A stretch of DNA of 64,000 nt from NCBI GenBank assembly GCA_900315705.1, contig ONAB01000012.1, forward strand, positions 24,332 through 88,331, written 5' to 3'. The translations under genes were made by a program, and so were the position numbers. Positions 34,272 through 37,713 of this stretch are shown here, in pieces; position 1 is the first letter of the stretch, and each line of letters starts with the position of its first letter. The notes below the pieces were generated by a model, which worked only from the letters and a program-made list of their open reading frames with translations, searched no databases and had not been told where the DNA came from. Source of the stretch: an uncultured Bacteroidales bacterium. Its GTDB lineage: Bacteria > Bacteroidota > Bacteroidia > Bacteroidales > WCHB1-69.

Positions 34272-34712
34272 ATGGCTATCAAAATGCAAAACAAGATCGA
34301 CACGACCTTCAGCGCCACGTCTATGTCGGACCTGGTGTTCCTGCTGTTGATCTTCTTTATGTTGACCTCAACGATGGTCTCTCCGAACGCCATCAACCTG
34401 GTGTTGCCGAAGAGCGACTCCGACAAGCAGCTGGTGTCCAAGAACATCGAAGTCTATATCAACGAAGACCTGCTCTATTTCGTCAATCCCGAGGGCTCCA
34501 ACGCACAGCCCATCCCATACGAGGAGCTGTTACCCGCCCTGCAGGACGCGGCCGCCCGCGACGACTCCGGTATGAAATCCATCATCCTGCGCGCCGACAA
34601 GAGCGTGCCTGTGGAGAACGTGGTGGCCCTGATGGACGTACTCAACCAACTCAACGAAGCATTCCCCGAAGAGGAACGTTATAAAATGGTACTTGCCACT
34701 GAAGGAAAATGA
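34272..34712 (+). CDS. exbD: Biopolymer transport protein ExbD/TolR family
   Basis: 146 residues: short cytoplasmic start, one membrane helix (LVFLLLIFFMLTS, about 18-35) preceded by the conserved aspartate in MSDLVF, and a periplasmic domain with the RADKSVPVENVVALMD pattern. It partners ExbB. Its end overlaps the next ATG by 4 bases (ATGA), so translation of the TonB-like gene is coupled. Confidence 0.92.
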   Translation: MAIKMQNKIDTTFSATSMSDLVFLLLIFFMLTSTMVSPNAINLVLPKSDSDKQLVSKNIEVYINEDLLYFVNPEGSNAQPIPYEELLPALQDAAARDDSGMKSIILRADKSVPVENVVALMDVLNQLNEAFPEEERYKMVLATEGK

Positions 34713-35416
34713 AACAAGAACTCGACCATAATACAAAGGACGACCTGATCGCGAGCGGTTCCACTATTGCGGCACTGGTACTCATCATCGTGCTGCTGCT
34801 CGCCTTCGGACTGAAGTCCATCATCCCCCCGCCTCCGCCGAAGAAGACCTTCTACGTGGATATCGCAGAGTATGCGGGCGGCGGCGGTGGCGGCGGCACC
34901 CCCGACCCTACCCCCAGCACGTCGCGCCAACCCTCCGGTCAGACCTACGCCACCCAGAACGCGCAATCCGCACCCTCCGTGGCACAGTCCGACAAGCCCT
35001 CCACCACCAACAGCCAACCCGCAGTCTCCACCCCTAAACCCGACCAGTCGGCGATGTACAAGGGACGTGGCGGCACCGGTTCTGGCGGCGGCTCAGGCTC
35101 CGGCATCGGCTCTGGCACCGGCTCCGGCCTCGGCCCTGGCGAGGGCGGCGGCCACGGCGGCGGTTATGGATTTGGCACTGGAAACAGAGGAATGAAGACA
35201 AAGCCAAAATTAGAAATCACTGAGGACCACGGGACTGTATGCGTAGAAGTATTTATAGAAGAAGATGGTACAGTTTCTAAAGCTCAGTTAGTACCAAATA
35301 AAACCAGTATAACGAACACTTCTATTCAACAAGCATGTATCCAAAAGGCCAAAAAAATCATATATGATAAAGGTAAGAAAGAACGTCGTTATGTTGTTTT
35401 TGGCACAGATAATTAG
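34709..35416 (+). CDS. TonB-like energy transducer with replaced C-terminal segment
   Basis: 235 residues. One N-terminal membrane anchor (about 18-36), then PPPPPKK, a Ser/Pro/Gln linker, a Gly-rich block (about 112-158, repeated SGSG) and a C-terminal beta/alpha domain typical of Bacteroidota TonB proteins. Up to about base 35185 the DNA is GC-rich; from GMKTKP (about residue 160) it is AT-rich with different codon use. A GC-rich version of the missing end survives downstream (35473-35572). The C-terminal contact domain therefore appears swapped. Third gene of the exbB operon. Confidence 0.8.
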   Translation: MKQELDHNTKDDLIASGSTIAALVLIIVLLLAFGLKSIIPPPPPKKTFYVDIAEYAGGGGGGGTPDPTPSTSRQPSGQTYATQNAQSAPSVAQSDKPSTTNSQPAVSTPKPDQSAMYKGRGGTGSGGGSGSGIGSGTGSGLGPGEGGGHGGGYGFGTGNRGMKTKPKLEITEDHGTVCVEVFIEEDGTVSKAQLVPNKTSITNTSIQQACIQKAKKIIYDKGKKERRYVVFGTDN

Positions 35417-35444: not shown

Positions 35445-35473
35445 GTAGAGCCGCCACAATGTGACGGCTCTAC
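35445..35473. repeat. REP palindrome (GTAG-headed)
   Basis: GTAGAGCCGCCACA followed by its near-complement TGTGACGGCTCTAC, 29 bases. Its right end abuts the displaced 3' end of the tonB gene. Confidence 0.85.
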
Positions 35474-35672
35474 TAACAGCGCCATCCAGGCCCAGTGCAT
35501 CGCACAGGCCAAACAGGCCCGCTACAAGGCAGGGAAAGAGGAATTACGCGTTATTATTTTCCATTAGGATATCCCAACAGAGCCTCCACACAATGTAGAG
35601 CCGCCACATCGCAACGTAGAGTAGAGCCGCCACAATGTGACGGCTCTACGGAGGAATTGCAACATCGCGACG
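35473..35672 (+). pseudogene. Displaced 3' end of a tonB-like gene
   Basis: 200 bases about 98% identical (four differences) to 36623-36822. It encodes the last 31 residues (from SNSAIQAQC to VIIFH) of the GC-rich TonB-type C-terminus, the stop, and the downstream REP region. No start or upstream frame is attached. Confidence 0.85.
35621..35649. repeat. REP palindrome
   Basis: Same 29-base GTAGAGCCGCCACA/TGTGACGGCTCTAC palindrome. A half-copy (GTAGAGCCGCCACATCGC) precedes it at 35595. Confidence 0.85.
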
Positions 35673-35756
35673 ACTCTACCACATTCAGCCTTAATGAGAC
35701 GTTTTGCACGAAGATCTGTTAACAGGATACAAGATATATGCATAAAGAAAAAAACG

Positions 35757-35793: not shown

Positions 35794-36717
35794 ATGAAAC
35801 ATTATCTTAGTCTTTTGGTTTTCATTTTTATTGTTTGGGATTGTTTCCCCCAACTGAACGTTATTGACTCAAAAGCCACAACACCCAAAGCAACAACAAG
35901 CCAATCCCAAATCATATCGGTAAAACTCCCTTTCACCGCATTTGAAGGCAACAACAATCTTGTAGACAACTATCTATGCTACAACGGAGAGCAGTATTAT
36001 ATTTTAGCAAAGAAAACCAGCAGTCCATCTGTCAAGAATGTTTCTTTTGTATTAGGAACAACTAAAGAATCTTCTATTAAAACGCTCCGTGATTTACAAG
36101 ATTGGATGTCTAATAATTCTATAAAAACTTCCATTACGGTAAATATGGGAGGGAAAAAGCACACTATAACTAAAACAGATGAAGATATCTTATCCTTTAC
36201 CTCACCCGACAATACTGTCAACTGGATGTTAGATAGCCATCAAATCACAAAAAGTATCAACCACTTGTCCAGCAATGGGTTCTCCAATACAGATCCATCC
36301 GGTATGTATAAAGGCCGCAGCGGTGCAGGCTCTGGCGGTGGTTCCGGAAGTGGCATCGGCTCCGGCACAGGTCATGGTATAGGTTATGGTACAGGCAGTG
36401 GCTCGGGCAGCGGTTCCGGCTATGGCTCTGGCATCGGTCCTGGCGAGGGCAGTGGTTCTGGCGGCGGCATCGACTACGGCACCGGCTCCCGCGGGATGAT
36501 CAACAACATCAACACCACCGTCAACGAAGAGGGACAGGTCTGTGTGGAGGTGCACGTCACCGCCGAGGGCAACGTCATCAGCGCCCGCGTCATCAACACC
36601 GCCAAATTCAAGACCACCATCTCTAACAGCGCCATCCAGGCCCAGTGCATCGCACAGGCCAAACAGGCCCGCTACAAGGCTGGGAAAGAGGAATTGCGCG
36701 TTATTATTTTCCATTAG
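35794..36717 (+). CDS. Chimeric secreted protein with TonB-type Gly-rich and C-terminal domain
   Basis: 307 residues. Signal peptide (about 1-20), an AT-rich domain of unknown family (about 21-165, no cysteine pair or known motif), then from GMYKGRSG (about 169) a GC-rich Gly/Ser block (to about 230) and a TonB-like C-terminal domain. The second half parallels the TonB gene upstream (MYKGRgGtGSGGGSGSGIGS). It lacks the N-terminal anchor of TonB, so it is probably exported free into the periplasm. Base composition changes abruptly at the fusion point near 36300. Function unknown. Confidence 0.65.
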   Translation: MKHYLSLLVFIFIVWDCFPQLNVIDSKATTPKATTSQSQIISVKLPFTAFEGNNNLVDNYLCYNGEQYYILAKKTSSPSVKNVSFVLGTTKESSIKTLRDLQDWMSNNSIKTSITVNMGGKKHTITKTDEDILSFTSPDNTVNWMLDSHQITKSINHLSSNGFSNTDPSGMYKGRSGAGSGGGSGSGIGSGTGHGIGYGTGSGSGSGSGYGSGIGPGEGSGSGGGIDYGTGSRGMINNINTTVNEEGQVCVEVHVTAEGNVISARVINTAKFKTTISNSAIQAQCIAQAKQARYKAGKEELRVIIFH

Positions 36718-36770
36718 GATATCCCAACAGAGCCGCCACACAATGTAGAGCCGCCACATCGCAACGTAGA

Positions 36771-36799
36771 GTAGAGCCGCCACAATGTGACGGCTCTAC
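36771..36799. repeat. REP palindrome at the 3' side of the transposase
   Basis: 29-base GTAG-headed palindrome identical to 35621-35649, 27 bases beyond the transposase stop. Confidence 0.85.
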
Positions 36800-36825
36800 G
36801 GAGGAATTGCAACATCGCAACGAAC

Positions 36826-37500
36826 TTACACGGGATTTTCATCAGAATCAATTCCCCATTTCGCCACATTATCATCAATATATTGTACTATATTTTTCAT
36901 CTCCTCCTGATTCCGTATAATTCTATCATAGAAACGAGTTTGCCAAGCAAATGTGATTGAATTCAAATTTGCGAAGCGAGTAACGGCATATTTGAATCTC
37001 GAAATAATGTGGGATAGTCTTCCACAACGTCTGGCAACAACACGCATTTTTGTATCACCTTGACATTGTGGCACAGTAGAGCCGTCACATTGTGGCGGCT
37101 CCACAAAAGAATCGTCACATTGTGGCGGCTCCACAGAAGAATCGTCACATTGTGGCGGCTCCACAGAAGAATCGTCACATTGTGGCGGTTCTTCTGTGGA
37201 TGACAATATTTCCGAGGCTTCCTTTATCTCATCAACTATCACAACCAAATGTATGTGATCTGGCATAACAACATATACCGGCACAAACACACCATTATGC
37301 AACGATTCAATTTGTCCTATACAGGTACTAGCATATTCCCCTACAACCGAAAGATGCATTTCTCCATCAGTTATTTCTCCAAAATAATGCTCCCTCCCAT
37401 TCGTACATATGGTAATGAAATACCTTCCAGTATTGTAATTGTGCCAACGAGCACGAACAGTGGCTATTCTGTATTTATTTAAAAATCTGTCCTCTGACAT
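36826..37500 (-). CDS. REP-associated tyrosine transposase (Y1/IS200-like, RAYT)
   Basis: 224 residues. Y1 HUH endonuclease fold: RWHNYNTGRYFITICTNGR at the start, the metal-binding HUH motif in MPDHIHLVV (about 80-88), and the likely catalytic tyrosine in ISRFKYAVTRF (about 168-178). RAYTs are domesticated single-copy relatives of IS200 that act on REP palindromes. Between HUH and the tyrosine the protein has four 10-residue repeats (VEPPQCDDSS) encoded by a REP array. The gene is flanked by REPs on both sides. Confidence 0.85.
   Translation of the reverse strand: MSEDRFLNKYRIATVRARWHNYNTGRYFITICTNGREHYFGEITDGEMHLSVVGEYASTCIGQIESLHNGVFVPVYVVMPDHIHLVVIVDEIKEASEILSSTEEPPQCDDSSVEPPQCDDSSVEPPQCDDSFVEPPQCDGSTVPQCQGDTKMRVVARRCGRLSHIISRFKYAVTRFANLNSITFAWQTRFYDRIIRNQEEMKNIVQYIDDNVAKWGIDSDENPV
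37076..37199. repeat. REP tandem array inside the transposase gene
   Basis: Four 30-bp units, the first beginning GTAGAGCCGTCACATTGTGG and later ones AGAATCGTCACATTGTGG, in frame with the transposase. Ends in CTTCTGTGG. Confidence 0.9.
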
Positions 37501-37594
37501 ATCATTCTTATTTAATTGTTATCTTTTTGCAAAAATACAATTATTATAAATACAACACAAACATAGCCGTCAAATAATATAGGACCACCACACA

Positions 37595-37713
37595 GTAGAG
37601 CCGTCACATTGTGGCGGCTCGATAGAAAAATCGTCACATTGTGGCGGCTCGATAGAAAAATCGTCACATTGTGGCGGTTCCACAAAAGAATCGTCACATT
37701 GTGGCGGCTCTAC
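37595..37713. repeat. REP tandem array upstream of the transposase
   Basis: Four 30-bp units (core TCGTCACATTGTGGCGGCTC), beginning GTAGAG and ending CTCTAC, so the ends are inverted. It lies in the 238-base gap between the transposase and DUF4159 genes. The rest of that gap is AT-rich. Confidence 0.9.

Follow-up and report, generated by a model that had tools for sequence, protein, structure and literature searches.

In-frame REP repeats in a REP-associated tyrosine transposase gene of an uncultured Bacteroidales bacterium

How REP-associated tyrosine transposases (RAYTs, or TnpA-REP) and the repetitive extragenic palindromes (REPs) with which they are associated remain cognate as the gene passes from one genome to another is the question at stake in a locus of an uncultured Bacteroidales bacterium (assembly GCA_900315705.1, contig ONAB01000012.1, positions 24,332-88,331 of the forward strand), a stretch of 64,000 nt that is referred to here as the window. 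Its minus strand contains, at 36826-37500, an open reading frame (ORF) that codes for a RAYT of the Y1 (HUH) type with 224 amino acids, in which an array of REP units is translated in frame; members of the same REP family lie beside the gene and around it in the genome. Genes with their own REPs in frame are of a known kind, because Quentin et al. 2018 described in-frame REPs in TnpA-REP subclass 2.4 (PMC6006769), and the window gene is a clear new example. As to their origin, we consider it probable that cognate REPs inserted themselves into the disordered loop of their own RAYT and were then expanded and contracted in frame.

One REP family inside, beside and around the gene

Read in the direction of the gene, an upstream array of four 30-bp units with GTAG and CTAC at its two ends (37713-37595, about 95 bp before the start codon) is followed by a promoter-like site (37561-37530), the start codon (37500), the HUH motif, the in-gene array (37200-37076), the WQ and tyrosine motifs, the stop codon and, just past it, a single double-foot REP of the form GTAG...CTAC (36799-36771). 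The in-gene array occupies the hinge between HUH and tyrosine with four 30-bp units, which translate, as a preliminary description of this DNA had stated, into four 10-residue repeats (from residue 104, EPPQCDDSS-VEPPQCDDSS-VEPPQCDDSF-VEPPQCDGST). The same description had listed the single REP and both arrays, and these are recovered in the sequence and by Tandem Repeats Finder (TRF), which reports a period of 30 at 37602-37710 (3.6 copies) and at 37072-37188 (3.9 copies). The two arrays are 91% identical over 124 nt, and the upstream array is open in a 47-aa frame whose peptide is nearly that of the in-gene array. The term "GTAG-headed" suits the single REP and the array ends and has to be given up for the in-gene units: GTAG is found on the plus strand of the unit at 37076-37104 only, while on the minus strand GTGG heads three of the four units and the remaining one has neither. 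A 41-nt palindrome lies at 37160-37200. On the minus strand the single REP folds into a hairpin of -12.1 kcal/mol (z -7.91), and the end units of the in-gene array also fold well (-9.6 and -16.7 kcal/mol); the single interior unit that was folded (37106-37134) is weak (-3.0 kcal/mol, z -0.89). As wholes, both arrays fold better than their shuffles (z -6.26 for the upstream array and z -5.09 for the in-gene array).

The REP family extends beyond the range first described, with two further members at 35445-35473 and 35621-35649. A 19-nt core with up to three mismatches has 16 matches in the window, several of which are both strands of one palindrome, and none in 100 shuffles, and a 17-nt core with at most one mismatch is found at 39 places of the host genome (47 contigs, 3.0 Mb), where the reversed pattern has no match under the same limit. 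Chance or low-complexity repetition, which had been named beforehand as a possible refutation, is ruled out by these two controls. The 30-bp spacing occurs among the 39 places, by their coordinates, only in the two arrays of the RAYT locus. Because the in-gene array, its neighbours and the dispersed copies belong to one REP family, the gene appears to contain its own probable target, as had been proposed.

In relatives, represented by one genome per species, any match to the core is found in 20 of 100 genomes, with most in G028 (10) and then G027 (7); the reversed-pattern control gave a single match over 101 genomes, in G053. Cognacy was also tried the other way round, with four in-gene cores of homologues run over six genomes. 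The core of G050 has 15 matches in its own genome (14 sites, one counted on both strands) and none in the five others, and that of G018 has five in G018 and one each in G000 and G050.

By eye, the dispersed REPs of six host-genome loci (L001, L003, L004, L016, L019 and L022) form a recurrent composite, in which a REP is accompanied by a nearby partial second REP with GTGGGGTCATCGTCGT or a similar sequence between them, an arrangement that is BIME- or REPIN-like. In four further loci of this genome (L154, L155, L157 and L158) a second REP subfamily is seen, in which the stem GAGACGCC...GACGTCTC replaces GAGCCGCC...GACGGCTC and the inner part is common with the main family.

The assignment of the enzyme as a Y1 (HUH) RAYT, also made in the preliminary description, stands on its ORF, its motifs and a match to the NCBIfam model REP_Tyr_transpos (E 1.4e-11; 44.4 bits, under the model's cut-off of 80) that falls in two stretches, the best at residues 162-216; Pfam and, by phmmer, the PDB chains gave no match at 0.001. 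The HUH motif PDHIH corresponds to residues 80-84 (codons 37249-37263), AWQ to 36940-36948, with WQ as residues 186-187, and the Y---N pair Y207-N211 lies within 36868-36885, all on the minus strand. H82, H84, WQ, Y207 and N211 are invariant across a 22-row alignment. The protein thus has the HUH and the single tyrosine in Y---N context of RAYTs (class 2 TnpA-Y1), and its REPs adjoin the gene and are dispersed through the genome as expected of a RAYT; the P that follows N in the published class-2 context (Y---NP) is absent, since the window protein reads YIDDNV. In the alignment, P stands after N in L053, L056, L057, L062, L064, L066 and L071; the remaining 15 rows have V there.

An AlphaFold model computed with this alignment has a confident core (mean predicted local distance difference test score, pLDDT, 74.6; 111 of 224 residues at 90 or more). 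Scores under 50 are given for residues 102-104, 106-112, 117-120 and 123-148, so the insert is located in a low-confidence loop between the strand at 82-89 and the helix that begins at 149. This modelled position agrees with the published view of the RAYT insert as peripheral.

Hinges of homologous RAYT genes

The window gene was compared with the loci that best matched its protein (the best 30 or fewer, then the best 80 of 494). Of 153 loci, 118 were scanned, 35 host-genome loci fetched for their REPs or for partial matches being left out, and the 116 ORF hits were reduced to 104 genes by requiring P[NDS]HxH, WQ and a unique hinge, and to 102, the window gene included, by dropping the other two RAYTs of the host genome (L037 and L039). 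Gene starts were guessed, and the genes are not independent, the near-copies L053/L068, L058/L059 and L065/L066 having been retained. With the hinge taken as HUH to WQ and the flanks as up to 1.5 kb per side, 50 of the 102 genes have a 14-mer common to the hinge and their own flanks. The gene's 5' part shares one with the flanks in 6 of 102 genes, part of which may be real REPs (L063, for one, carries an in-frame repeat close to its N-terminus). When hinges were set against the flanks of another locus, sharing fell to a mean of 4.2 (maximum 9 in 50 permutations), and with shuffled hinges to 0.65 (maximum 3).

This distribution bears on the idea that REPs land in any gene and survive wherever a loop permits, in the manner of intragenic REPs and of the Rickettsia palindromic elements, the RAYT being hit only since REPs cluster near it. 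Intragenic REPs of the GTAG and CGTC types have indeed been published for many unrelated genes in the available text of PMC3733652, and several mechanically called ORFs of the host genome span REP cores. Two of these look real by eye (L021, ORF 1187-2428, 413 aa, and L156, ORF 623-1666, 347 aa); they contain REP-related cores and, again by eye, look Rhs-like. However, an element also present in the flanks is found in roughly every second RAYT hinge and only seldom in the 5' parts, and REP sites avoid other ORFs: in a census of 51 fetched loci with mechanical ORF calls, 14 of 110 REP sites outside RAYT genes lie inside ORFs of at least 150 aa, though such ORFs cover 82% of the DNA. Indiscriminate landing is therefore held to be quite improbable.

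Tandem arrays (TRF, period of at least 9) are present in the hinges of 29 of the 102 genes; not all of them are derived from REPs. The frame is constrained: all 47 TRF rows in hinges have a period divisible by three, vs 49 of 103 rows in the flanks, part of which lie in coding DNA themselves. The number of units can differ between relatives, in line with the variation that had been proposed: the RAYT genes of G006 and G021 (L053 and L068) are three substitutions and 42 bp apart, the latter being two whole 21-bp units. A kept frame might be taken to mean that the repeat is a feature of the protein, a peptide with a function of its own that resembles a REP by descent only. The peptides of the hinges, however, are unrelated between homologues (VEPPQCDGST, CRDAINRVST, VETGHALSLQ, CRDVPWRVST), whereas at the DNA level many of these hinges form a GTAG-type hairpin; moreover, the model shows a low-confidence loop here and the sister gene L052 does without the repeat, so that a role of the peptide itself is given hardly any credence.

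Hairpins are frequent at this place. Scores of at least 9, an arbitrary threshold with an 18% background in shuffles, are reached in 87 of 102 hinges, vs 27 of 102 5' parts and 54 of 306 shuffles. GT[AG]G stands near the foot, as delimited by the script's window, in 41 of the 87, and GTAG is found inside additional printed stems.

Paired substitutions and a sister gene free of internal REPs

The excess of hairpins in hinges is also what would be expected if the in-gene hairpin were a maintained cis-element, either bound by the RAYT, together with the upstream array, in its own gene or mRNA so as to limit expression, or kept as a donor that accompanies the gene wherever it goes; selection would then act on the hairpin as nucleic acid and not on the peptide. 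Bacteroidota promoters have the consensus TTTG-N(18-21)-TANNTTTG, which has four matches in the window vs 0.75 expected from shuffles, and one of them, TTTG-N20-TATTTTTG on the minus strand at 37530-37561, is the promoter-like site between the upstream array and the start codon, a position that suits such a brake. The clade that contains the window gene (16 members, tree support 97/88) also speaks for a cis-element, since in 11 of the 16 the in-gene hairpins can be set in register in one frame and their pairing can be compared. Paired cells amount to 87.9%, vs 78.6 in shuffles, and cells changed on both sides number 18, vs a shuffled mean of 5.8, with none of 500 shuffles as high in either case and only 0-4 such cells in slid controls; the covariation score is 0.373 vs 0.173. 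In G019 one pair differs on both sides from that of G018 and G029, whereas the older form persists in a REP of its own flank.

Other measures are less favourable to a maintained element. Pairs with two-sided changes, a weaker measure, number 5 vs 3.0 (20 of 500 shuffles as high). Further pair types, at 8, fall below the 9.7 of shuffles (497 of 500 shuffles reach 8), and pairing at the four outer positions breaks down in 3-4 of the 10 distinct rows. The copy of G019 is paired at 11 of 14 positions, its outer pairs being partly lost, and the interior unit of the window array that was folded is a poor hairpin. The remaining five members of the clade do not conform either: the hairpin threshold is not reached in L052, L085 and L087, the hairpin of L096 lacks GTAG, and that of L106 lies in a different peptide frame. 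Exchange of the in-gene unit for another REP copy would yield paired changes too. Moreover, a P-x-x-D motif served to select the rows, L050 was included manually, the window array was represented by whichever of its four units paired best, and common descent of the rows can by itself lift such values above those of shuffles in the absence of structure. The paired changes are thus suggestive of selection on the hairpin without proving it, and a maintained cis-element is regarded as a possible but rather unlikely account of the insert.

The closest comparison is provided by L052 of G028, a sister RAYT with 61% identity to the window protein (tree support 100/95). By eye, two REPs of the window's core adjoin the 3' end of this gene and none lies inside it, so the in-gene REP is not supported as an essential part. 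Since L052 lacks an internal REP and is nevertheless flanked by REPs of the same core, the insert seems dispensable for the association of RAYT and REP, provided that L052 is functional. Its flank also contains 3.1 copies of a 57-bp tandem repeat whose core is related, and in the flank of L051 an array of a REP-derived 26-bp unit (10.8 copies) was noted outside the gene.

Origin of the insert and known systems

The probable origin stated at the outset, insertion of cognate REPs followed by changes of unit number, can be laid out as follows. The locus would be a REPtron, whose RAYT acts on double-foot GTAG...CTAC hairpins, the presumed single-stranded target being GTAGAGCCG... hairpins. Cognate REPs would have been copied, probably by the RAYT itself, near its own gene and on single-stranded DNA, into the disordered loop between beta4 (HUH) and alphaC, where inserts would persist, additional residues being tolerated by the loop unless the frame is broken or a TAG is read in frame. 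Slippage or recombination would then add units to the repeat or remove them, always whole and in frame, and the in-gene array may have been exchanged with the array upstream of the promoter-like site, in which case copying could have gone in either direction. That the window RAYT cuts and copies REPs, that slippage took place, and that the arrays were exchanged, with whatever direction, is what we infer from the locus and its relatives.

Several observations weigh against this origin. No 14-mer is shared between the hinge and the gene's own flanks in 52 of the 102 genes, some hinge arrays are not derived from REPs (that of L057 has a 9-bp unit), and in 2 of the 47 TRF rows (L119 and L107) the consensus length is not a multiple of three. 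In the cognacy trial, the in-gene core of G061 has three sites in its genome, all at the RAYT locus, and, with one mismatch allowed, the lone match of that of G001 in its genome is the in-gene copy itself (three one-mismatch matches occur in G018); therefore dispersal is not general, and the idea that every in-gene core is dispersed in its genome was discarded. The paired changes suggest more than passive insertion, and the cleavage reported in the available text of PMC8266576 concerns enzymes of groups 2 and 3 only, so that its extension to the window RAYT would be by analogy. In favour of this origin, the same text reports that CT is where single-stranded REPs are cut by the TnpA-REP enzymes of S. 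maltophilia and of E. coli, the latter with a crucial need for GTAG; the Marinomonas group 3 enzyme cleaves also at CA.

Among known systems, the window gene most resembles subclass 2.4, equivalent to RAYT group 4, with which it shares in-gene REPs, double-foot GT[AG]G...C[TC]AC REPs and REPs flanking the gene (PMC6006769). Quentin et al. 2018, who defined double-foot REPs and reported this subclass from Cyanobacteria, Bacteroidetes and other phyla, considered in-frame REP insertions between HuH and Y as its unique feature and mentioned short repeats in the variable insertion (PMC6006769). The length- and sequence-variable insertion after the HuH strand is made of in-frame REPs in the window gene as well, and the REP at 36771-36799 is of the double-foot form. 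With in-frame REPs published at the same place and hinge arrays in 29 of 102 homologues, the in-frame array cannot be called unusual, as it was in the preliminary description. Of the subclass motifs NH[IFV]H, WQ and YIxNNP, WQ is present, whereas the window protein has DHIH in place of the first and YIDDNV in place of the last, although relatives with NHIH or NP share its alignment and tree. A further difference from the main text of PMC6006769, whose supplements may show tandem arrays, is the four-unit tandem array with its matching upstream array. The window RAYT may thus work like those of subclass 2.4, to which it is likened by features rather than by a place in the published tree.

The E. 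coli TnpA-REP (RAYT group 2) and the group 3 REPtrons of S. maltophilia and Marinomonas are alike in having an HUH-Y1 enzyme with GTAG-tagged hairpins next to its gene; as far as described in the available text of PMC8266576, they differ in that GTAG stands on one side of the hairpin and in that their enzymes were assayed, the window RAYT being known from sequence. They differ also in the in-gene REPs, a trait that PMC6006769 reserves for subclass 2.4. Intragenic GTAG and CGTC REPs and the Rickettsia palindromic elements are likewise palindromic repeats translated in frame, but in unrelated host genes, as the available text of PMC3733652 presents them, and not in the gene of the element's own presumed enzyme. 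In the literature text on genes of this kind, a controlled cognacy test, a difference in unit number and paired changes were not found, although supplements may hold some of these.

Beside the RAYT gene, a 201-bp direct duplication (35473-35673 and 36623-36823, 98% identical) contains the 3' end of the gene at 35794-36717 and a REP, that at 35621-35649 lying within the duplicate. The copy at 35473 opens at the last base of the REP at 35445-35473, with a C|T junction. The duplication may be a trace of REP-linked strand transfer, since C|T is the published cut site of other TnpA-REP enzymes, or it may be due to chance. The neighbouring genes at 34709-35416 and 35794-36717 have glycine-rich 12/18-bp repeats and a similar C-terminus, TonB-like by eye, and genes that resemble them also adjoin the sister RAYT in L052.

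A more far-reaching and tentative idea, to which we give little weight, is that the RAYT coding sequence is a selected cis-element, in which the enzyme would read the hairpin of its own gene and the upstream array as a donor copy or a brake, the REP family and the enzyme would evolve as one unit, and the in-frame array would be a contingency-like tuner of loop and dosage. A gene that carries its own target makes the matching of RAYTs and REPs testable, because gene and target would travel together. To decide whether the copy inside the gene serves as cargo, as donor or as regulator, a comparison set is available in the paired substitutions, the arrays locked in frame and the sister gene without an internal REP.
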